64,000 bases of DNA from Longimicrobium sp. Its GTDB lineage: Bacteria > Gemmatimonadota > Gemmatimonadetes > Longimicrobiales > Longimicrobiaceae. Under the pieces are notes generated by a model that saw only the letters and a list, made by a program, of their open reading frames with translations, did not search any database and had not been told where the DNA came from. The position numbers were made by a program, and so were the translations under genes. The stretch spans positions 1 through 64,000 of the forward strand of contig DASUYB010000017.1 of NCBI GenBank assembly GCA_036377595.1. Reading direction: 5' to 3'. Below are positions 7,370 to 24,892 of this stretch, one piece after another. How positions within the stretch are numbered: position 1 is the stretch's first letter; the number at the start of each line of letters is the position of its first letter.

Positions 7370-8623
7370 TCAGCCGCCCTTCGCCATCGAATCCAGGAAC
7401 TCCTTGTTGTTCTTCGTCTTCCGCATGCGGTTCAGCAGGAAGTCGATGGCCTCGGCCGGCGGCATGTCGCTCAGGAAGTTGCGCAGCAGGTACACGCGCG
7501 TGAGCTCCATCTCCGTCAGCAGCAGGTCCTCGCGGCGCGTCCCCGAGCGGTTCAGGTCGATGGCCGGGAAGATGCGCCGGTCGGCGATGTGCCGGTCGAG
7601 CACGAGCTCCATGTTGCCGGTGCCCTTGAACTCCTCGAAGATCACCTCGTCCATCCGGCTCCCCGTCTCCACCAGCGCGGTCGCCACGATGGTGAGCGAG
7701 CCCCCCTCCTCGATGTTGCGCGCCGCGCCGAAGAAGCGCTTGGGCTTGTGCAGCGCGTTGGCGTCCACGCCGCCGGAGAGGATCTTCCCGGAGTGCGGCA
7801 CCACCACGTTGTAGGCGCGCGCCAGGCGGGTGATGCTGTCCAGCAGGATCACCACGTCGCGGCCGTGCTCCACCAGGCGCTTGGCCTTCTCCAGCACCAT
7901 CTCGGCCACCTGCGTGTGGCGGTCGGCGGGCTCGTCGAAGGTCGACGAGATCACCTCGGCCTTCACGTTCTCCTGCATGTCGGTGACCTCCTCGGGCCGC
8001 TCGTCGATCAGCAGCACGATCAGGTGCACCTCGGGATGGTTCTCGGTGATCGCGTTGGCGATCTTCTGCATCAGGATCGTCTTGCCGGCCTTCGGCGGCG
8101 CCACGATCAGGCCGCGCTGCCCCTTGCCCAGCGGCGCGATCAGGTCCATCACGCGCATCGACAGGTCGCCCGCGGCGCCCTCCAGGTGCACGCGCTCGTC
8201 GGGATAGCGCGGGCGCAGGTTGTCGAAGGCGATGCGGTGCTTGGCCTTCTCCGGCTCGTCGCCGTTGACCCGCTCCACCTTGAGCAGCGCCAGGTAGCGC
8301 TCGCCCTCCTTGGGCGGGCGCACCTGCCCCAGCACCGTGTCGCCGGTGCGCAGGTCGAAGCGCTTGATCTGGCTGGGCGAGACGTAGATGTCGTCGGGGC
8401 CGTACAGGTAGTTCCAGTCCTGCGAGCGCAGGAACCCGTATCCCTCGGGAAGGACCTCGAGCACGCCCTCGCCGCGCAGCACGACCTCGCTGTCGAGCAG
8501 GTTCTGCTCGATGCGGTAGATCAGGTCCTGCTTCCGCAGTCCCGAGTAGTTGGAGATGTTGAGCCCTTCCGCCATCTCGTGCAGCTCGGAGATGCTCTTC
8601 GACTTTATGGAGGTGATGTCCAC
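7370..8623 (-). CDS. rho: Transcription termination factor Rho
   Basis: A 417-residue RNA-dependent ATPase, the normal length for Rho without large insertions. The N-terminal helical domain ([20 protein letters not shown]) and the cold-shock RNA-binding domain ([20 protein letters not shown], about 61-80) are followed by Walker A APPKAGKT at about 175-182, Walker [11 protein letters not shown] near 257, and the Q- and R-loop regions ([20 protein letters not shown]). It acts as a hexameric ring that ends transcripts in the cytoplasm. The last residues (FLDSMAKGG) match the usual C-terminus. A leader of more than 500 bases without a gene lies upstream, which fits the autoregulated, Rho-dependent leaders known for rho. 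Confidence 0.98.
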
Positions 8624-9135
8624 GACTGGCTCCGATTACGTTTGCCAGACACTCCGGCTCTCACGGGGCCCGGTGCCGCCGCGTCCGCTGGAATGTTCCG
8701 TTATCGCGAGGGAAGAAAGACCAGGGAGGAGGCGCGCACGCGCCCTGGAACCGAGTAGCTGATTTGTTCGTTGGGATCTGAGGCCCAACGTAACCACCGG
8801 TACGACCCGGCGCAAGAGAAAACATCTGGCTACACCAGTGTTTTCGCCGTTTCCGGGGCACCTTCCCCGTGCCGCTCCCTGGCAGTGGATTGCTCGTGCG
8901 GCGCGCGCACGAATCAGGCCACGCAGGTATCCTTTCAGCGGCGAACCCGTTGCGGCGCAGGCATTTCAAACCGCTGCCGACCAGCCCGTCACCGTTCTCC
9001 CGTTCTATCGCTGCAACCGCATACACGCCCGGTGCCCACTTGTGCCCCGAGTCGGGCCCGCCCGGATTAGCGGAAGATGAAGGCGCCGCGCGGATTCTCA
9101 TGTGCTCCCGTGCCTCGTAGCAGCGCGTTCACTTT
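8624..9135 (-). promoter_or_regulatory. Long 5' leader region of rho with two hairpins
   Basis: There are 512 bases between the rho start and repeat A copy 3 with no convincing gene. Two perfect or near-perfect inverted repeats are present: CGTTGGG/CCCAACG at about 8769-8790, and GAAAACA-CTGG/CCAG-TGTTTTC at 8818-8845. Neither is followed by a T-run. The remainder is less GC-rich than the coding sequence. A role in rho autoregulation is inference. Confidence 0.45.
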
Positions 9136-15904: not shown

Positions 15905-15985
15905 TGGGCTGAGTACCGCGGCAGGGAGAGCATCCCCAGGCTGAATTGCCGCGACGGACCTCGGCGAGGCCCTCACCCGAAAAAT

Positions 15986-16029
15986 GGAGCAGGCGAGACG
16001 GTACTGCTGTCTCGCCTGCTCCGTTTTTC
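15986..16029 (+). terminator. Rho-independent terminator
   Basis: 14-base-pair stem GGAGCAGGCGAGAC/GTCTCGCCTGCTCC, 9-base loop, then GTTTTTCG. It lies about 80 bases after the EF-G-like gene. A diverged copy of the same right arm plus T-run occurs at about 29258-29278, so this hairpin is itself a dispersed element. Confidence 0.85.
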
Positions 16030-16059
16030 GACCTCTCCCAAAACCGACTGGGAGAGGTG
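16030..16059. repeat. Hairpin related to dispersed family F
   Basis: CCTCTCCCA and TGGGAGAGG flank AAAACCGAC. The same core, with more C/G, occurs at 45842-45866 and 62287-62314. Confidence 0.6.
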
Positions 16060-16295
16060 ACTGCAAACGAAAGGGCCGCTCGTCCTCCGGTGTGAATTGA
16101 CCGGCTGAAAACGCTTGCTCTCCACCTCTTCCGGTGCCTAGATTTCACCCGCATCGAAACGGCGTCACCTCCTGAGGCAGCACGCTTCCACGGCGAGCCG
16201 GGGCGTGTTGCCGGTGGATGCGCGTGGCGATGCGTTTTGGTCCAAAAGAATCTCCATCCCACCGCGACTCCCGGAACCGACCCAGGAGCACGACC

Positions 16296-17420
16296 ATGGC
16301 ACCCCGAGCCTCCGGCCGCGGCGCTCGCTCGCTCGCCGTCCTGGCCGCCTGCGCGGCCGCGCTCATGACCGCGCCCGCGCCGCTTTCCGCCCAGCAGACC
16401 CTGACCCCCGCCATGCAGCAGGCCGTCTCGGCGCTCACGCGCGCGCTCCAGCAGAAGAACTTCGAGGTGCTGGCCCCGTACCTGGACGACGGCTTTCGCG
16501 TGAGCGGGATGACGGGTCCGTTCGCGAGGCAGCTCCTGGCGCAAGTGGTGGCGGGCGGACGCCGCGCGCCCACCGCGGTGCACGTGGAATCTTCGCGGGC
16601 CGAGGGCGGGCTGGTGCGGGTGGACGCCCGGTTCGCGTATCCCGAGGGCGAGCGGCCGATGGAGCTGGTGCTGACCGCGGCCGGCAAGTTCGTGGAGATC
16701 CCCCTGGTGCAGGTGCAGATGACCGGCGGCGCGCCCCCGGGCGGCGGCTCGGGCGAAGAGCCGGTGCACGTGGTGATGGGTGGCGCGCCTCCCCCCGGCG
16801 TCGTGCGCATGCCGGCGGGCACGGCGCCCGTGCAGCCGGGGACGGCTCCCGCGCCGGCGGACGGTGACCGTTCCGTCACCAACCCCGCGCTGCGCGACGA
16901 GCTGCTGCGGATGATGGAGGAAGACCAGCGGGTGCGCTCGGCGCTGACGACCGGCGGGACGCCGCCGAGCCCGGGCTCGCCCGCGGTGCGCGGGATGCTG
17001 CACGCCGACAGCATCCACACGGGGCGGCTGCGGGAGATCGTCGAGCGGCACGGGTGGCCGGGAAGCACGATGGTGGGTGAGGACGGCGCCGAAGCCGCGT
17101 GGACCATCCTCCAGCACTCCGATCAGGAGACGCAGGAGCGCTATCTTCCGCTGGTGCGCCAGGCGGTGGAGCGGCACGAGCTGGGCGCCGACATGCTGGC
17201 GATGCTGGAAGACCGCGTGCGGATGCGCCGCGGCGAGAAGCAGCTCTACGGCACGCAGCTCCGGCGCGACCCCGCCACCGGCCGCGCCCAGTTGTGGCCG
17301 GTGGAAGACGAGGCGAACGTGGACCGGCGCCGTGCCGCGGTGGGCCTTCCGCCGCTGGCCATGTACCTGTCGAACTTCGGGATCCAGTACACGCCGCCCG
17401 CCCCGTCCCCCCGCCCCTGA
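16296..17420 (+). CDS. Secreted DUF6624-domain protein
   Basis: This 374-residue protein starts at ATG 16296 behind CCAGGAGCACGACC. A signal peptide with hydrophobic core SLAVLAACAAALMTAPAPLS ends near AQQ. Residues about 35-135 form an alpha/beta domain (VSALTRALQQKNFEVLAPYL) reminiscent of NTF2-like folds. A Gly/Pro/Ala-rich linker follows, then a C-terminal DUF6624 domain: LRDELLRMMEEDQRVRSAL, REIVERHGWPGSTMVGEDGA, WTILQHSD, GEKQLYGTQLRRD and VDRRRAAVGLPPLAMYL. DUF6624 is of unknown function and is common in Bacteroidetes and gemmatimonads. A candidate promoter (TTGCTC, 18 bases, TAGATT) lies at 16115-16144. Confidence 0.8.
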   Translation: MAPRASGRGARSLAVLAACAAALMTAPAPLSAQQTLTPAMQQAVSALTRALQQKNFEVLAPYLDDGFRVSGMTGPFARQLLAQVVAGGRRAPTAVHVESSRAEGGLVRVDARFAYPEGERPMELVLTAAGKFVEIPLVQVQMTGGAPPGGGSGEEPVHVVMGGAPPPGVVRMPAGTAPVQPGTAPAPADGDRSVTNPALRDELLRMMEEDQRVRSALTTGGTPPSPGSPAVRGMLHADSIHTGRLREIVERHGWPGSTMVGEDGAEAAWTILQHSDQETQERYLPLVRQAVERHELGADMLAMLEDRVRMRRGEKQLYGTQLRRDPATGRAQLWPVEDEANVDRRRAAVGLPPLAMYLSNFGIQYTPPAPSPRP

Positions 17421-17441
17421 CCACGCCGGACGCATCGACGA

Positions 17442-17479
17442 ATCGAGGGCCGCCTCCCCATCGGAAGGCGGCCCTCGAT
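17442..17479 (+). terminator. Terminator-like hairpin
   Basis: 14-base-pair stem ATCGAGGGCCGCCT/AGGCGGCCCTCGAT, 10-base loop, no clear T-run. It lies 20 bases after the DUF6624 gene. Confidence 0.6.
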
Positions 17480-17595
17480 CCGTAGTGATCGTGGAAGGTG
17501 TGCGCATCACCGCGATCGCACCCATCCCCATCGACCGAGTGGTTGTCCCAATTCTGCGGATTCAGTGTGCATTCCGGCATCCGCAAAAGAATGAA

Positions 17596-17769: not shown

Positions 17770-19800
17770 TCACCCTCCCCCGCCGGCCGCCCGCACCTTG
17801 TTGACCAGCCGCGCCAGCAGGCTCATGTCCTGGGTGACCACGTCCATGTCGCCGCGCATCTCCTGGTGGAAATCCAGGCGGCGGCCATAGCTGGTCACCA
17901 GCCCCTTCGGCAGGCTGACCTCCACCTGGTAGGTCACCGAGCCGGGGTCGTTGGCGTCGGCCTGGAAGCCGAGCTGCGACACCCGCACCACCCGCCCGTC
18001 CACCGTGCCGTATTCGCGGTACGGATAGCTCTCCATGCGGATGATCACCCGCTGGCCGGGCTTCACCTTTCCCGCGCCCGCGCCGGAGAGCGTGGCCCGC
18101 CCCACCAGCCCCGACGCGGACGACACCACCGCCACCAGCGGCTCGGCCGCGCCCACGAACTGGTTCTCGTGTAGCTCGCGGAAGAAGGAGACGGTGCCGT
18201 CGGAGGGCGCGCGCAGCACGTTCTCCTGCTCCCACTGGGTGATGGCGGCGCGCATGGCGTGGTGCGCGTTGCGCAGCGCCACCAGCCCGCGCTGGCCCTC
18301 GTCGGAGCGGCGCTGCTCCAGGTCCAGCAGCGCCGACCGCTGCGCGGAAAGCTGCACCTCGTTGTTGGCCAGCGTGGACCGCCCGTTCTCCACCGCGTAG
18401 CGCTTCTGCAGGTAGTCTTCGTCCGACCTGTCCTGGTCCGTGGCGGCGGTCAGCCCGCGCTCCACCATCACCCGGGTGCGGTCGCGCGCGCGCTCGGCCA
18501 CGGCGAGCTGCTGCTCGAGCAGCGCCTGCTGCGCCTGCAGCCGGTCGTGCATCACCTGCAGGTCGGCCACCTGCTGCCGCGCGGTGGCCAGCTTCTGCGT
18601 GTAGAACAGCTCGTCGCGCGCCAGGCGGAAATCGGCGTACGCCTGCTGCAGCGCCGAGAAGGCGGACTGCAGCGTGCCCAGCGTGAGCGGGCGCGGGAAG
18701 GACAGGTCGGGAAGCGGCCCCGCGCGCTGCAGCGCGGGCTCCAGCCGGTCCAGCGCGGCGGACACGGCCTGCACGTCGGCGTAGTCCGCCGGGTTCTTCA
18801 GCAGCACGAGCGGCGCGCCCCCGCGCACCTTCGCCCCGTCCACGGCCAGCACGCGCGCCACCTCGCCCCCGTTGCGCGCCACCAGCCGCACCGGCGGCGT
18901 GGGCGTGGTGACGGAGATGCGGCCGTTGACCACGTCGGGCCAGGCGATGTAGGCGCCGATGGCCAGCAGCAGGCAGACGGTGCCGAACACGGCCGTGATC
19001 CCCCAGCGCACCAGCCCGCCGGGCATGCTGCTCAGGATCTCGTCGATCTCCTCGCTGCGGATCTCCACGTTGGCCGCGTCGCTCCGCCCCAGGTCGTCCT
19101 CGCCCTCCGGCGCGGAGATGGCGGCCGCCGCGACGAGATCCGCGATGTCCACCGGCGTCGCGGCCGTCTCCGCCGCCCGGACGGGAGATGCCGGGATCAC
19201 TGGGACGGGAGAGGGCGGGATCGGCTGGACGGGAGACGGCGCGGCGGCCGGCGCCTCCGCGCGCGCCGGCGCGGGGACGGCCTCCGGCGGCGGGGCGATG
19301 GGAGACGCGGGAGCCGGCTCCGGCGCGGGGGAGGCGACGGCGGCCAGCGGCTCCAGCACCGGCGCGGGCGCGGCGGGATCGGCCGGGCGCGCGGCGGCCG
19401 CCACCCCGGGCGTGGGGCGCGAGGAGACGCGCAGCGGGCCGTCGGGATTCACGAACACCTGGCGCCCCCCCTCGGAGTGCACCATGCGCGCGCCGGGCGC
19501 CAGCGGCGGCGGGCCGCTGGAGCGCGTCATCGACCCCCCCGGCGCGGGCGGGGCGTCTTCCGACGACAGCGTGTCCAGCGCCGACGCGTCGACCGCCGGC
19601 TCCTCCGCGTCGCCCTCGTCGGGGGGAAGCTCCACCCGCTCGCCGGTGGCGGTGAACATGAACGGCCGCGTCTGCACCATCACGCGGCGCGTGGCACGCG
19701 CGCGGGGGGCGGGGCGCGGCGGGGCGCCCGCCGCGGCGCCGTCGGGCGAAGGGACGGCGCCCGGCGCGGGCGCGTCGATCACCGGGTTCTCGTCGGCCAT
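17770..19800 (-). CDS. HlyD-type export adaptor of the RiPP cluster, with a 250-residue N-terminal extension
   Basis: This 676-residue protein starts at ATG 19800, sharing one base (TGATG) with the exporter stop codon. From residue about 247 it is a normal membrane-fusion protein: EEIDEILSSMPGGLVRWG just before a membrane segment (about 267-287), a short beta region (VRLVARNGGEVARVLAVDGA), two long coiled-coil helices (about 370-550), a lipoyl-like half motif (VLRAPSDGTVSFF) and a beta-barrel (KPGQRVIIRMESYPY). The first about 245 residues are cytoplasmic, Pro/Ala-rich and acidic, with only short ordered-looking parts (TRPFMFTATGERVELPPDEG; MVHSEGGRQVFVNPDG). Such adaptors link C39 ABC exporters to outer-membrane exit ducts. 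No TolC-like gene is in the window. Confidence 0.85.
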   Translation of the reverse strand: MADENPVIDAPAPGAVPSPDGAAAGAPPRPAPRARATRRVMVQTRPFMFTATGERVELPPDEGDAEEPAVDASALDTLSSEDAPPAPGGSMTRSSGPPPLAPGARMVHSEGGRQVFVNPDGPLRVSSRPTPGVAAAARPADPAAPAPVLEPLAAVASPAPEPAPASPIAPPPEAVPAPARAEAPAAAPSPVQPIPPSPVPVIPASPVRAAETAATPVDIADLVAAAAISAPEGEDDLGRSDAANVEIRSEEIDEILSSMPGGLVRWGITAVFGTVCLLLAIGAYIAWPDVVNGRISVTTPTPPVRLVARNGGEVARVLAVDGAKVRGGAPLVLLKNPADYADVQAVSAALDRLEPALQRAGPLPDLSFPRPLTLGTLQSAFSALQQAYADFRLARDELFYTQKLATARQQVADLQVMHDRLQAQQALLEQQLAVAERARDRTRVMVERGLTAATDQDRSDEDYLQKRYAVENGRSTLANNEVQLSAQRSALLDLEQRRSDEGQRGLVALRNAHHAMRAAITQWEQENVLRAPSDGTVSFFRELHENQFVGAAEPLVAVVSSASGLVGRATLSGAGAGKVKPGQRVIIRMESYPYREYGTVDGRVVRVSQLGFQADANDPGSVTYQVEVSLPKGLVTSYGRRLDFHQEMRGDMDVVTQDMSLLARLVNKVRAAGGGG

Positions 19801-21998
19801 CAGTTCCCCAGCTCGAGCTGGTTCTTCACCAGCGTGTAGTAGCTCCCGCGCAGCGCCGTCAGCTCGTCGTGCGTGCCGCGCTCGATGATCCGGCCCTGGT
19901 CCAGCACCACGATCTGGTCGGCGTTCTTCACCGTGCTCAGCCGGTGCGCGATGATCACCACCGTGCGCCCGCGGAAGAACTGCTGCAGGTTGTCGACGAT
20001 GGCGCGCTCGGTGTTGGCGTCGAGCGCGCTGGTAGCCTCGTCGAAGAAGAGGAAGTCGGGGTTCTTGTACACGGCGCGCGCGATCAGCACGCGCTGCCGC
20101 TGCCCCGCGCTCATCCCGATCCCGTCGCGGCCGATCTTGGTGTTGTAGCCCATCGGCAGCGACTCGACGAACGAGTGGATCTCGGCCATCTGCGCCGCGT
20201 ACAGCAGCCGCCCCCGGTCGATCTCGTCGTCGCCCACGGCGATGTTGTTGGCCACGGTGTCGCTGAACAGGTGGCCGTCCTGCATCACCACCCCGCAGCG
20301 CTTGCGCAGCGAGCGGGCCGAAAGGTTCCGCAGGGGCGTGTTCCCCATGTACATCTCGCCCTTCACCGGCTGGTAGAACTTCAGCAGCAGCTTGAGCAGC
20401 GTGGTCTTGCCGCTGCCGCTGCTCCCCACGATGGCGGTGACCTTCCCCTGCGGGATGTCGAGGTCCAGGTCGTCCAGCACCAGCTCGCTCAGCGGCCCGC
20501 CGTAGTGGAAGCTCACGTTGCGCAGGGAAAAGGCGCGCGTCTCGGGAAGGGCCATGACCTTCTCGTCGGCCACCTCCTCGTCTTCGTGCTCGTGGATCTC
20601 GGCCAGGCGGTCCAGCGCGATCTTGGCGTCCTGCGCCGTCTGCGTGAAGCCGATGAGCTGCGCCAGCGGCGAGTTGAGCTGGCCCACGATGAACTGCACC
20701 GACAGGAGCATCCCCAGCGTCAGGTCGCCCTCGATCACCAGCTTGGCGGCCAGGAAGGTGAGCGCCACGTTCTTCAGCTCGTTCAGCGCCGCCGCGCCTC
20801 CCTCCTGCATCTGCGAAAGCGACAGGCCGCGCAGGTTCACGCGGAAGAGGCGCGCCTGCACCCGCTCCCACCGCCAGCGCCGCTCCTGCTCGGCGTTGGC
20901 CAGCTTGATGTCGGGAAGGGCCTGCACCAGCTCGACCAGCGCGTTCTGGTTGGCCGACATCTCGTTGAAGCGCTGGAAGTCGAGCTCGCGCCGGCGCCCC
21001 AGGAAGAGCAGCACCCACCCCACGTGCACGATGCTCCCCGCCAGGAAGACGGCGAAGAGGAGCGGGTTGTACACCGCCAGCACCCCGCTGAACACGATCA
21101 GGGTGAAGAAGGCGAACACCACGTTCAGCGTGCTGGCGGTCACGAACTGCTGGATGCGCGTGTGGTCCTGGATGCGCTGGAGGATGTCGCCCACGGTGCG
21201 CGTGTCGAAGAACGGCACCGGCAGCTTCATCAGCTTGATCAGGAAGTCCGAGATCACCGACACGTACATCCTGGTTCCGATGTGGAAGAGGATGCGGTTG
21301 CGTATGAACTCCACCACGGTGCGGCTGAAGAGCAGGGCCAGCTGCGCGATCAGCACCGCGTTCACGAACGACAGGTTCTGCGTGGCGATCCCGTTGTCGA
21401 CCACCGCCTGGGTCAGGAGGGGGAAGACGAGCTGGAGGAGCGATCCCACGAACATCCCCAGCGCCACCTGCACGAACCAGGGCTCGAAGCCGCGCACGTA
21501 CGACAGCAGGAACCCCAGCTTGCGCCGGCCCGACAGTGCGTGGTCCTCGCGGGCGAAGAAGTCGGGCGAGGGCTGCAGGAGCAGGACGAACCCCGCGTCG
21601 CGCTCGCGGAACCGGGCCGACACGAAGTGGCGGCGGAACTCCTCGGTGCTCACGCTCACCACCCCGCTGTCGGGGTCGGAGATGTCCACCCGGTCGCCGC
21701 GCACGCCGTACACCACCACGAAGTGGTTCTGCCGCCAGTGCACGATGGCCGGCAGCGGCGCGTGCTCGAGGAAGTGCTCGGGCGACACCTTGGCCGCGCG
21801 CGTGCGGAAGCCGATGCTCTCGGCCGCGTAGGCGATTCCCAGCAGCGACACGCCCTGGCGGTCGATGTAGCTGCGGTCGCGCAGGTACTGCAGCGAGTAG
21901 CGGCGGCCGTAGTGCCGGGCCACCATGCGCAGGCAGGTGGGCCCGCAGTCCATGGCGTCGTGCTGGCGGTAGGACGGGAACTGGCGTCGCAGCTTCAT
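19800..21998 (-). CDS. C39-peptidase ABC exporter (bacteriocin/RiPP processing transporter)
   Basis: The 732-residue protein has the three expected parts. The N-terminal C39 peptidase has Cys18 in QHDAMDCGPTCLRMV, His92 in HWRQNHFVVVYG and Asp108 in VDISDPDSG. Six membrane segments span about 150-430. The ATPase domain has Walker A VGSSGSGKTTLLKLLLKF, signature MSAGQRQRVLIARAV and Walker B FLFFDEATSALD, ending with ERGTHDELTALRGSYY. Enzymes of this class cut the leader after a double glycine and pump the product through the inner membrane. The precursor at 24686-24892 has the matching GG site. The start is ATG 21998; an in-frame extension to 22043 is poor. Confidence 0.95.
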   Translation of the reverse strand: MKLRRQFPSYRQHDAMDCGPTCLRMVARHYGRRYSLQYLRDRSYIDRQGVSLLGIAYAAESIGFRTRAAKVSPEHFLEHAPLPAIVHWRQNHFVVVYGVRGDRVDISDPDSGVVSVSTEEFRRHFVSARFRERDAGFVLLLQPSPDFFAREDHALSGRRKLGFLLSYVRGFEPWFVQVALGMFVGSLLQLVFPLLTQAVVDNGIATQNLSFVNAVLIAQLALLFSRTVVEFIRNRILFHIGTRMYVSVISDFLIKLMKLPVPFFDTRTVGDILQRIQDHTRIQQFVTASTLNVVFAFFTLIVFSGVLAVYNPLLFAVFLAGSIVHVGWVLLFLGRRRELDFQRFNEMSANQNALVELVQALPDIKLANAEQERRWRWERVQARLFRVNLRGLSLSQMQEGGAAALNELKNVALTFLAAKLVIEGDLTLGMLLSVQFIVGQLNSPLAQLIGFTQTAQDAKIALDRLAEIHEHEDEEVADEKVMALPETRAFSLRNVSFHYGGPLSELVLDDLDLDIPQGKVTAIVGSSGSGKTTLLKLLLKFYQPVKGEMYMGNTPLRNLSARSLRKRCGVVMQDGHLFSDTVANNIAVGDDEIDRGRLLYAAQMAEIHSFVESLPMGYNTKIGRDGIGMSAGQRQRVLIARAVYKNPDFLFFDEATSALDANTERAIVDNLQQFFRGRTVVIIAHRLSTVKNADQIVVLDQGRIIERGTHDELTALRGSYYTLVKNQLELGN

Positions 21999-22076
21999 GA
22001 GGGGGCGGTCGGGGAGACGAAGGCGCCGCGCGCCCGGAAGCACCCGCGCTTCCGGGAGGATGGGCGCCGGGCGTGG

Positions 22077-23090
22077 TCAGTTCCAGCGGGCGGCGTACGG
22101 GTCGTAGCTGCATCCCGACGGCTTCGACAGCCGGTCGGCGGGGTCGCGCACCCAGGCGCGGCAGTCGGTGCACACGTAGCGGAACTCGCAGTCGCGGCAC
22201 GTTTCCACCTGGTCCTTGGTGATCGCCCACAGCTCGCGGAAGGCGGGGTGCTCCAGCGCCTCGTCGAGCCGGGTGTGGGCCGCGTTGCCGAACGAGCGCG
22301 GCAGCGAGGGGCAGTTGCGGATCTCGCCCGCCGCGTCGATCGAGAGCTTGCGGTTCAGGCACGAGTTGAAGCGCGTGGCCTCGGCGAACCCCTCCAGCGA
22401 CGGGCTGAACCACTCGGGGGCCACCGCGCCGCAGTGCGCGTGCGAGTCGACCCGCTCCTCGCGGTGGAAGATGGGGGTGTCGAGCCCGCCCACCCGCTCG
22501 GTGCGCGTCTCCGGCGCGGAGTGCACCGTCACGCCCATCACCCGCTGGTGGCGCAGGCACAGGTCCTCGAGCGCGCGGTCGGTCCACCCCGCGTCGTGGG
22601 GGAGCAGGAGCTCCACCGAGCGCAGCCGGCCGCTGGAGGTGTGCGCCAGCACCGCGTCCATCTCGCTCACGGAAACGGGGCGGAAGAAGCGGAGCTGCAG
22701 CGCCTGGCACCCCAGCCCGTCGAGCTGGCGCAGGAGCGACCCCCAGTCGTGCCGCGAGCGCTCGTCCACGTCGATGATGGCGTTGGTCACCCGCTCGGGG
22801 CGCTCCCACGACAGGTCCAGCGCCGGAAACGCGTCGGGGTCGTCGCACCAGAAGCCGTACTCCTGCTTCACCAGGAAGGCGAAGTACTCGTCGAGCGTGG
22901 CGTGCGCCTGCGCGGGAAAGTCGGCGCGGATCTCTTCCAGCGTGTGGTCGGTGTAGTGCTGGAGGATGTCGTACAGCCCGTTGGGGATCAGGTCGTAGCG
23001 CTCGCGCTGCAGGTCGCAGATGGTGCTGCGGCGCGCTCCCCTGACGGGAACGCAGCAGGCGAACAGGCGGAACACGCGGCGGCGGCTCAC
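22077..23090 (-). CDS. gwsS: Grasp-with-spasm system SPASM-domain maturase (GwsS-like)
   Basis: This 337-residue protein matches the family by its N-terminus (RLFACCVPVRGARRSTICDL, then RYDLIPNGLYDIL) and by a C-terminal SPASM-like cysteine region: CLNRKLSIDAAGEIRNCPSL, then CRDCEFRYVCTDCRAW and GCSYDP. The radical-SAM motif CxxxCxxC is absent; the N-terminal cysteines are C12, C13 and C25. As I recall, that absence is typical of GwsS, which is therefore named for its SPASM domain only. It may present the precursor to the ATP-grasp enzyme or bind an Fe-S cluster; its chemistry is not settled. The start ATG overlaps the upstream stop (ATGA), so translation is coupled. Confidence 0.85.
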   Translation of the reverse strand: MSRRRVFRLFACCVPVRGARRSTICDLQRERYDLIPNGLYDILQHYTDHTLEEIRADFPAQAHATLDEYFAFLVKQEYGFWCDDPDAFPALDLSWERPERVTNAIIDVDERSRHDWGSLLRQLDGLGCQALQLRFFRPVSVSEMDAVLAHTSSGRLRSVELLLPHDAGWTDRALEDLCLRHQRVMGVTVHSAPETRTERVGGLDTPIFHREERVDSHAHCGAVAPEWFSPSLEGFAEATRFNSCLNRKLSIDAAGEIRNCPSLPRSFGNAAHTRLDEALEHPAFRELWAITKDQVETCRDCEFRYVCTDCRAWVRDPADRLSKPSGCSYDPYAARWN

Positions 23091-23506
23091 CGGCGGCCTC
23101 CCACGCAGCGCGACAGCGGCTTGTAGAAGGGAACGCAGGTGTACGCCCGGGCCCGCGCGGCCGCGCTCGACGCCACGCGCATGGTCACCCCCGAGTAGCC
23201 GGCCTGCGACGCCAGCCGGTAGGTGAGCGGCAGCGACACTCCCGCCACCATGTCGGCGGGGAGAGCCTCCAGGAAGGGGCGGTCGAGGTCGGCCTCGTCG
23301 GGGGCGTCGTAGTGCCGCGTCTTGACCTCGCCGCTGACCTCGCGCTCCTCCACCGGATAGCGCACGGCGGAGGGAACGCCCGGCGGCGGGGCCAGGGACA
23401 CCGGCACCGTTCCCGGCGCGGGCGGCGGGGGCGCGGAGGCCTGCGTTGCCGCGGGTGCGGCGGGTGCGGCGGCGGCGGGCGCCGGGGGAGCCTCGAGCAT
23501 GGACAT
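23087..23506 (-). CDS. Unknown 139-residue protein inside the grasp-with-spasm cluster
   Basis: The frame is fixed by overlap on both sides: TGATG with the ATP-grasp gene and ATGA with the SPASM gene. The first 45 residues are Ala/Pro-rich and disordered (MSMLEAPPAPAAAAPAAPAA). The remainder looks structured: VRYPVEEREVSGEVKTRHYD, LPADMVAGVSLPLTYRLASQ and a C-terminus with two cysteines (YTCVPFYKPLSRC). There is no signal peptide or membrane segment. It is not a recognised maturase and lacks a GG leader site, although the hydrophobic VSLPLTYRLASQAGYSGVTM stretch is notable. It could be a scaffold, immunity or recognition protein; no function is claimed. Confidence 0.75.
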   Translation of the reverse strand: MSMLEAPPAPAAAAPAAPAATQASAPPPPAPGTVPVSLAPPPGVPSAVRYPVEEREVSGEVKTRHYDAPDEADLDRPFLEALPADMVAGVSLPLTYRLASQAGYSGVTMRVASSAAARARAYTCVPFYKPLSRCVGGRR

Positions 23507-24492
23507 CAGGCGCTCCGCGCGATCAGGTACTCGGCCACCTTCTTCTCCAGCCTGTAGTTGCAGCGGTGCGACACCATCCCGAACTGCCCGCCCGGGTTCA
23601 CCTCCAGGAACACGTGCCGGCCGTCGGGGGTGCGGATGAAGTCGATCGAGCCGGTTTCCAGCCGCAGCGCGCGCATGGCCGCGCGCACCCGGCCGGCCAC
23701 GTCTTCGGGGAGGCGGTAGGGAACCGAGCGGTTGGGGCGCTGCCGCCGGTAGTGGCGGAAGTCCACGGCGGTCTGCTCGTCGGCCTGCGAGAAGATGGCC
23801 ATCGAGTACATCTCGCCCGCCAGGTAGAAGGTGCGGATCTCGAACTCCTTCTCCACCAGCGCCTGCACCAGCGAGGGAAAGGCCGGCCGCGGGAGCGCGG
23901 CCACGTCGTCCTCCCTCACCTCGGCCGTGTACAGCCCGAAGCGGTAGCCGAAGAAGCAGTACATCTCCATCTCGCCCACGCTCTTGGTGATCACGCGCCC
24001 GTGCTCGCGGCGGAAGGCCTCGAGCTCGTCGGGGTCGTTGCTCACCAGCGTGGGGGGGATCTCGAGCCCCGCCACGGCGGCGGCGCGCAGCACGTGCAGC
24101 TTGCCCACGGCGCCGTCCTGCGGCCGGGTCAGCCAGTGCGCGTCGCCCAGCGCGCCGAACAGCGCGCCGGCCACGGCGCCCAGCTCGCGTCCCAGGTGCG
24201 CGTTCATCTGCGCCGCGATGGGCTCCAGCCCGGGGAGGGCGCGCACCGGGGCGCCCTCGCCCGCGCCCCAGCGGCGCAGCCAGACCACGCGCACGTCCTG
24301 CTCGGTGAAGTGGCGCCCGTCCACGCACAGGCGGATGCGCGGCCCGGTGCCGCCCACCGCCAGCCGGAACGGCCGCGGCGAGGTGAGGTCGTCACCGTTC
24401 AGGCGCACGCAGTCGCCGCCCAGCGCGCGCACCCAGTCGACCACCTCTTCGGTGGTGATCTCCTGATTGGCGTCGCTGAGTACGAGGATCAT
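23506..24492 (-). CDS. gwsG: Grasp-with-spasm system ATP-grasp ligase (GwsG-like graspetide synthetase)
   Basis: The protein of about 328 residues begins MILVLSDANQEITTEEVVDW at ATG 24492; a GTG three codons upstream (24501) is equally possible. Features of graspetide ATP-grasp ligases are present: an N-terminal recognition domain (VRVVWLRRWG), the ATP lid lysine in GRVITKSVGEMEMYCFFGYR, FEIRTFYLAGEMYSMAIFSQ, and the Mg-binding signature GSIDFIRTPDGRHVFLEVNP followed by GGQFGMVS. These enzymes phosphorylate Asp or Glu side chains of a precursor peptide and close ester or amide rings with Ser/Thr or Lys. The Gws family pairs with a SPASM-only protein, which lies two genes downstream. Coupled translation with the next gene. 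Confidence 0.9.
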   Translation of the reverse strand: MILVLSDANQEITTEEVVDWVRALGGDCVRLNGDDLTSPRPFRLAVGGTGPRIRLCVDGRHFTEQDVRVVWLRRWGAGEGAPVRALPGLEPIAAQMNAHLGRELGAVAGALFGALGDAHWLTRPQDGAVGKLHVLRAAAVAGLEIPPTLVSNDPDELEAFRREHGRVITKSVGEMEMYCFFGYRFGLYTAEVREDDVAALPRPAFPSLVQALVEKEFEIRTFYLAGEMYSMAIFSQADEQTAVDFRHYRRQRPNRSVPYRLPEDVAGRVRAAMRALRLETGSIDFIRTPDGRHVFLEVNPGGQFGMVSHRCNYRLEKKVAEYLIARSA

Positions 24493-24685
24493 GGGGCCCA
24501 CGGGGTGGCGGAGGGTGGCTCGCTGGCCGGCGGACGGGGCCGGCGCGGATCTATGCGCGGGGGTGGAAATGCCCCCGCGTGGCGGTGACCTGCAGGGCTT
24601 CCCGGACGAGCCGGCCAGGGTCAGCCGTACGCCAACGCCCGAGAGAGTGTGTTACGGGTGGTTGCTACGGGTACAGCCGGGTGGG

Positions 24686-24892
24686 TCAGGCTTCCGCGAC
24701 GGGGGCGGCCTCGACCTCGTAGATCAGGTCGCGAATGCGCTGGTCGGGCGACCAGGTGCCGTCGGACCACAGGATGATCGTGTCGGTATAGCAGTAGCCG
24801 ATCAGCTCGGCGGCCTGGCCACCGACGACCAGCGACGCTTCCTTCTCGGACAGCGGGGCGAACATGTTGTCGCTCAGCGATTCGAGCTGCAT
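24686..24892 (-). CDS. gwsA: Graspetide-type precursor peptide with double-glycine leader
   Basis: The 68-residue peptide has a strong ribosome binding site (TTAGGAGGCACC-ATG). Residues 1-25 are a typical leader (MQLESLSDNMFAPLSEKEAS, then LVVGG) with hydrophobic residues at the usual positions before Gly24-Gly25. The core of 43 residues is acidic and contains possible ester donors Thr36, Thr38, Ser43, Thr46, Ser48 and acceptors Asp37, Asp44, Asp50, Asp55, Glu59, Glu61, with one Cys (Cys34) and two Trp. It lies first in the cluster, 193 bases upstream of the ATP-grasp gene, the normal place for a highly expressed precursor. The product structure cannot be deduced. Confidence 0.85.
   Translation of the reverse strand: MQLESLSDNMFAPLSEKEASLVVGGQAAELIGYCYTDTIILWSDGTWSPDQRIRDLIYEVEAAPVAEA

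Follow-up and report, generated by a model that had tools for sequence, protein, structure and literature searches.

A grasp-with-spasm graspetide cluster in Longimicrobium sp. (Gemmatimonadota) and a probable leader-binding role for its SPASM protein

Gene content of the locus

We analyzed a 64,000 nt stretch of DNA, here called the window, from Longimicrobium sp., a soil bacterium of the Gemmatimonadota. The window carries a grasp-with-spasm graspetide cluster with a complete set of genes for making and exporting a peptide (Table 1). The initial annotation had listed six leftward open reading frames, encoding a precursor, an ATP-grasp ligase, a small protein, a SPASM protein, a C39 ABC exporter and a HlyD adaptor, all of which were found where it had placed them. 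It had also described the genes as mostly coupled, which is borne out by overlaps at three junctions (1 nt between gwsG and the LPL gene, 4 nt between the LPL gene and gwsS, and 1 nt between the exporter and HlyD genes); the other two junctions are spaced, by 78 nt between gwsS and the exporter gene and by 184 nt between the precursor gene and gwsG. The range given for the cluster, 17770–24892, does hold these six genes but appears slightly too narrow, as a neighboring DUF6624 gene probably belongs to the cluster as well (see below).

Table 1. Features of the cluster and its surroundings, in window coordinates.
Feature	Position	Strand	Evidence
DUF6624 protein gene, probable extra member	16218..17420	+	PF20329 1.4e-26; only copy in 7.2 Mb; enrichment
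HlyD-type adaptor, 676 aa	17770..19800	-	TIGR01843; homologs at like position in sister clusters
C39 peptidase-containing ABC exporter (PCAT), 732 aa	19800..21998	-	PF03412, PF00664, PF00005
gwsS, SPASM protein without radical SAM site	22077..23090	-	TIGR04193 313.2 bits; AF2 model; Foldseek
GwsS SPASM region	residues 220–327 (22110–22433)	-	model and conserved Cys
GwsS truncated barrel	residues 103–209 (22464–22784)	-	three and a half beta-alpha units in model
GwsS RRE domain (predicted)	residues 6–82 (22845–23075)	-	strands and three helices in model
LPL-family small protein, 139 aa	23087..23506	-	conserved position directly before gwsS; motifs in relatives; PMC8939145
gwsG, ATP-grasp ligase (graspetide synthetase)	23506..24501	-	TIGR04192 246.9 bits; PDB relatives; conserved residues
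Hairpin in the precursor–gwsG gap, perfect 8-bp stem and 8-nt loop	24556..24579	-	inverted repeat I3
Precursor peptide, 68 aa	24686..24892	-	leader HMM; aligns with 17 sister precursors; only genome match

The precursor had been noted as a 68-residue peptide with a GG leader and a strong ribosome binding site; its gene has an AGGAGG Shine-Dalgarno sequence, and homologous leaders occur in sister clusters. The hairpin downstream of it may act as an attenuator or as an mRNA-stabilizing element, and may set the ratio of precursor to enzyme expression. For gwsG, the ATG at 24492 (MILVLSD) is the more likely start, as this is where the sister proteins begin. Both gwsS and gwsG are present in one copy above cut-off in the 7.2-Mb genome of the host. 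A search of this genome for a second gws copy or orphan precursors found none, and yielded two weak ATP-grasp matches below cut-off. A gene for a LuxE-like acyl-protein synthetase (PF04443, 25307–26476) lies upstream of the precursor gene in the same orientation, and nothing ties it to the cluster.

The exporter contains C39, membrane and ATPase domains, and the motifs DCGPTC, HFVVVYG and DPDSG can be read in its sequence. The HlyD adaptor matches TIGR01843 from residue 265 with an E-value of 1.3e-31, HlyD models all scoring below their curated cut-offs. Ahead of its conserved part is a Pro/Ala-rich N-terminal extension of ∼240 residues.

The DUF6624 gene is convergent with the cluster, 349 nt beyond the HlyD stop codon, and its start is not fixed. 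Judged by eye, the protein likely has a signal peptide. A profile search detected DUF6624-like open reading frames at 36 of the 73 gws loci from Bacteroidota, and in 28 loci they lie on the same strand at most 700 nt away. As background, twenty such genomes (∼117 Mb) gave 41 matches, or ∼2 copies per genome, which predicts ∼0.006 matches for a 17-kb locus; the locus and genome searches used unlike models and thresholds, but a several-fold undercount would still leave a large excess. Speaking against membership, no DUF6624 gene was found near the sister gemmatimonad clusters of the host's family. His300 and Arg240 are nearly invariant in DUF6624. Makarova et al. (PMC8939145) describe a "cluster 23" that is often secreted, has a conserved His and Arg and occurs in almost all branch 5 loci, and DUF6624 is probably this family. 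Being the only copy in the genome and of a family that often accompanies such clusters, the gene at 16218–17420 is probably a member of the cluster.

Family membership and distribution

Searches with the grasp-with-spasm TIGRFAM models, proposed earlier as a check, placed both maturases above the curated cut-offs, with TIGR04192 and TIGR04193 as their best matches. Under NCBIfam scoring gwsG reached 246.9 bits against a cut-off of 230, a modest margin, and GwsS 313.2 bits against 175. In the proposed comparison of neighborhoods, the order of the core genes was conserved among relatives, and the reading of the locus as a Gws-type system in a gemmatimonad is thus supported. The cluster shares with the known grasp-with-spasm system (TIGR04192/TIGR04193; PMC8939145; PMC13097080) the order of ligase, LPL and SPASM genes, the GG-leader precursor in front, the C39 exporter and the HlyD adaptor, DUF6624 being present in many loci. 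It differs in its host, which belongs to the Gemmatimonadota and not to the Bacteroidota, in a precursor family and cores that match no NCBIfam precursor model, in the cores of its family, which mostly lack Cys, and in the long Pro/Ala-rich extension of its LPL protein. We conclude that the cluster is real and complete and that it belongs, as a representative from the Gemmatimonadota, to a known group of graspetides, which Makarova et al. call ATP-grasp branch 5. This group is probably graspetide group 14 of Carter et al. (2026; PMC13097080), who list a SPASM protein as invariably present with it. Our literature search found no experimental product and no SPASM-protein function for the grasp-with-spasm group, and no experimental paper on graspetides in gemmatimonads.

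Such systems had been placed mostly in Bacteroidetes. This holds for the family as a whole, but the system is not confined to that phylum, since Acidobacteriota also carry it and contain the nearest outside relatives. A scan of genome contigs with a single GwsS sequence as query gave no match, but an alignment-based scan of GTDB genomes returned 451 relatives. The 79 loci kept belong to Gemmatimonadota, Acidobacteriota (5 loci) and Bacteroidota. In a maximum-likelihood tree of 85 GwsS proteins, which has a weak backbone and is rooted at the midpoint only, the eight Gemmatimonadota clusters form one clade (100/99), and together with the Acidobacteriota they make up a clade of 13 (97/91) among the Bacteroidota; the Gemmatimonadota rows deviate in amino-acid make-up, which may help draw them together. 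The finding extends the grasp-with-spasm group to Gemmatimonadota and Acidobacteriota.

Within the phylum the distribution is patchy. Only one of 200 genomes sampled across it, that of the window, scored above the TIGR04193 cut-off, as did six of 21 in the host's family with eight clusters in all, the window's cluster thus having seven sisters with homologous leaders and hypervariable cores. Such patchiness could indicate a decaying horizontal acquisition that makes nothing. We consider this highly improbable, as the six frames are open, the catalytic residues are intact, the leader is conserved, the ribosome binding site and the coupling of the genes are retained, and the eight Gemmatimonadota GwsS proteins form a single clade.

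The ligase contains the EVNPGGQF signature, as the initial annotation had pointed out. Its relatives in the PDB are AMdnB and MdnB/C-type ligases, and K134, K173, E221, R223, D287, E300 and N302 are invariant among the ligases compared. GwsG thus shares the ATP-grasp fold family and the ATP and metal motifs of microviridin/marinostatin-type synthetases (MdnB/MdnC, AMdnB, CdnC). To our knowledge these act without an RRE/SPASM partner, whereas GwsG is always adjoined by GwsS and the LPL protein. A macrocyclic ester or amide, the product proposed earlier, would fit the intact residues of gwsG.

The small protein between the maturases had been taken as unknown, but it belongs to the LPL family (PMC8939145). 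The LPL motif is at residues 92–94 (23225–23233) and FYKPLS, an instance of the C-terminal motif FYKP[ILV]S, at residues 127–132 (23111–23128). The window protein has a Pro/Ala-rich N-terminal extension of ∼75 aa, and the nearest two sisters, L042 and L044, share such an extension. At 77 of the 85 loci a short gap, usually 143–342 nt long (415 nt in the window), separates gwsG from gwsS on a shared strand, and nearly every such gap holds a small open reading frame. An alignment of 45 of these showed the Pro of [LIVF]P[LIVFA] to be invariant and the Lys and Ser of the C-terminal KP[ILV]S to be at least 90% conserved. Makarova et al. (2022; PMC8939145) likened the LPL family to the chaperone PqqD.

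Precursor peptides

The leader of the window precursor is MQLESLSDNMFAPLSEKEASLVVGG, and the core starts at Q26. A leader HMM found 18 precursors in seven of the eight clusters of the family, and inspection of the eighth (L043) revealed two more. The leader consensus is KLESLxxxLFAPLSxxEAAxVKGG with invariant L3, L6, F11, P13 and G24, and two of the Acidobacteriota loci (L050, L051) encode recognizably related leaders. A model built from the 18 precursors, the window's included, matched the 7.2-Mb genome at the window locus only. As the leader HMM finds the sister leaders and the precursor model matches this locus alone, we do not regard the window precursor as a chance open reading frame. None of the NCBIfam precursor models reached its cut-off on it, which we did not take as defining because precursors of branch 5 are reported to be very diverse (PMC8939145).

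One sister cluster, L046, contains seven precursors. Six extra, mutually divergent genes stand in a row downstream of HlyD (15953–17522 of that locus), and the seventh is located upstream of gwsG.

Candidate donors in the window core are T36, T38, S43, T46 and S48, and candidate acceptors are D50, D55, E59 and E61, both sets lying around an S43-D44-G45 turn. The pattern [ST]x(2-5)[DN]Gx(3-7)[DE] occurs in 13 of the 18 cores, some of which are near-copies and hence not independent, whereas after composition shuffling it was seen in 1.6 cores on average and in five at most. This suggests a hairpin with a DG or NG turn, a donor before it and an acceptor after it, which in the window core would be T38, D44-G45 and D50.

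GwsS and a proposed mechanism

GwsS had been described as a SPASM-only maturase without CxxxCxxC, and this motif is indeed absent from the window protein and from all 84 relatives. The Pfam Radical_SAM model had no match in the window protein, nor any among the family matches listed for the 84 relatives. Single-sequence and profile searches of the PDB with GwsS also gave no match, and we therefore turned to structure. An AF2 model of GwsS, built on 84 aligned sequences from the window and from genome loci with plasmid sequences left out, had a pLDDT of 95.5, and with the whole model Foldseek returned structures of CteB, a sactipeptide maturase (PDB 5why/5wgg), as the only PDB matches below an E-value of 0.001. 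The two proteins have RRE, barrel and SPASM region in the same order, but GwsS has only ∼3.5 beta-alpha units and lacks CxxxCxxC, and thus no SAM chemistry is expected of it. When the N-terminal 98 residues were modeled alone (pLDDT 94.3), the top 12 PDB matches were without exception RiPP proteins that carry an RRE, including TbiB1 and lasso B1 with leader peptides, CteB, TruD, a heterocyclase and PbtF; these matches are weak, with E-values of 0.015 or worse, though with a probability of 1.00. The model thus predicts this domain to be an RRE, a PqqD-like winged-helix, leader-binding fold.

In the SPASM region eight Cys are conserved in 99–100% of the 84 relatives, although four of them lie in the scan pattern and their invariance is partly selected. 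Iron-sulfur clusters therefore seem to matter in most lineages. GwsS is thus most aptly read as a former radical SAM enzyme in truncated form that carries an RRE and at most two iron-sulfur clusters. With an RRE, part of a barrel and a SPASM region like radical SAM maturases, it might instead complement, as an auxiliary half, a radical SAM enzyme whose gene lies elsewhere in the genome. We give this little credence, since the model is well folded and yet shows a truncated barrel, and a second open reading frame with a radical-SAM-like Cys motif was present at only three of 85 loci, never next to gwsS. At these loci we thus saw no neighboring gene that would supply such an enzyme.

Nearly all SPASM Cys have been lost from the GwsS proteins of five Hymenobacteraceae loci (L040, at 7989–9014, and L140 to L143), which form one related group that probably goes back to a single loss event. 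L140 has an in-frame TAG, and L147 is intermediate. The adjacent GwsG keeps K134, K173, E221, R223, D247, D287, E300 and N302, and neither the LPL gene nor the RRE region has been lost. Hence the function common to all GwsS proteins apparently needs no iron-sulfur clusters, which leaves the RRE as the candidate working part. Because the Cys-less proteins sit beside an intact ligase, LPL protein and RRE, this common role is probably leader presentation and not radical chemistry. Comparison with relatives suggests that GwsS is mainly a peptide-holding helper.

We propose the following mechanism, to which we assign a probability of about 0.65. The precursor would be recognized via its leader, bound by the RRE domain of GwsS, and GwsS and the LPL protein would present the core to GwsG. 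GwsG would phosphorylate Asp/Glu side chains and join them to Ser/Thr side chains, giving lactones and not lactams, since the window core has no Lys. The rings would most likely form across the SDG turn, for example from T38 to D50. The C39 exporter would cleave behind the GG, and exporter and HlyD adaptor together would secrete the product. GwsS would not act as a radical SAM enzyme, and its iron-sulfur clusters would be structural or serve a lineage-specific extra step. Weighing against this mechanism are the weak E-values of the RRE matches, the conservation of the eight Cys and, for the Cys-less group, its probable origin in a single loss and the in-frame stop in one of its members.

We prefer this mechanism because of the Cys-less GwsS variants and a precedent from rosaritide (group 21). 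Carter et al. (2026; PMC13097080) show that its synthesis requires the partner MirC, the N-domain of which bears a weak resemblance to an RRE. The synthetase MirB thus depends on a partner with an RRE-like N-domain, as proposed for GwsG and GwsS, but MirC is chaperone/PPIase-like, not a SPASM protein, and there is no family relationship.

The main alternative is that GwsS is a second tailoring enzyme carrying out an iron-sulfur redox step on the core (e.g. on Cys, Tyr or Trp), its RRE serving that step while GwsG recognizes the leader alone. Other graspetide synthetases recognize the leader on their own. The conservation of the SPASM Cys would fit such a step, as would the Cys in the window core. 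Thioether or carbon crosslinks have been suggested by Makarova et al. (PMC8939145), according to whom many cores of branch 5 have conserved Cys. However, the window core is the only one with a Cys among the 18 of the Longimicrobium family, GwsS has no radical SAM site, and its Cys-less forms persist beside an intact GwsG, so that we find this alternative unlikely. As the sister cores lack Cys, we rejected the idea that GwsS proteins generally form thioethers.

Leader presentation to GwsG thus remains our preferred role for GwsS. For the family at large, we lean slightly towards seeing former radical SAM enzymes turned leader-binding partners of ATP-grasp ligases, with the RRE as the common working part, the SAM site absent throughout the relatives compared and the clusters also lost in Hymenobacteraceae. 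Added here to what was known are the taxonomic spread, the precursor family, a radical-SAM-less GwsS with a predicted RRE and thereby a structure-based role, the Cys-less variants and a likely DUF6624 companion. The role of a SPASM protein without radical SAM chemistry becomes directly testable, with the Cys-less GwsS proteins as ready-made natural controls, and the LPL and DUF6624 genes should be included when such clusters are expressed.

Among the other Bacteroidota loci, the gwsS of L121 (8001–8975) has an in-frame stop codon and is possibly a pseudogene. A plasmid locus of Hymenobacter canadensis carries ten small precursor-like genes in tandem.
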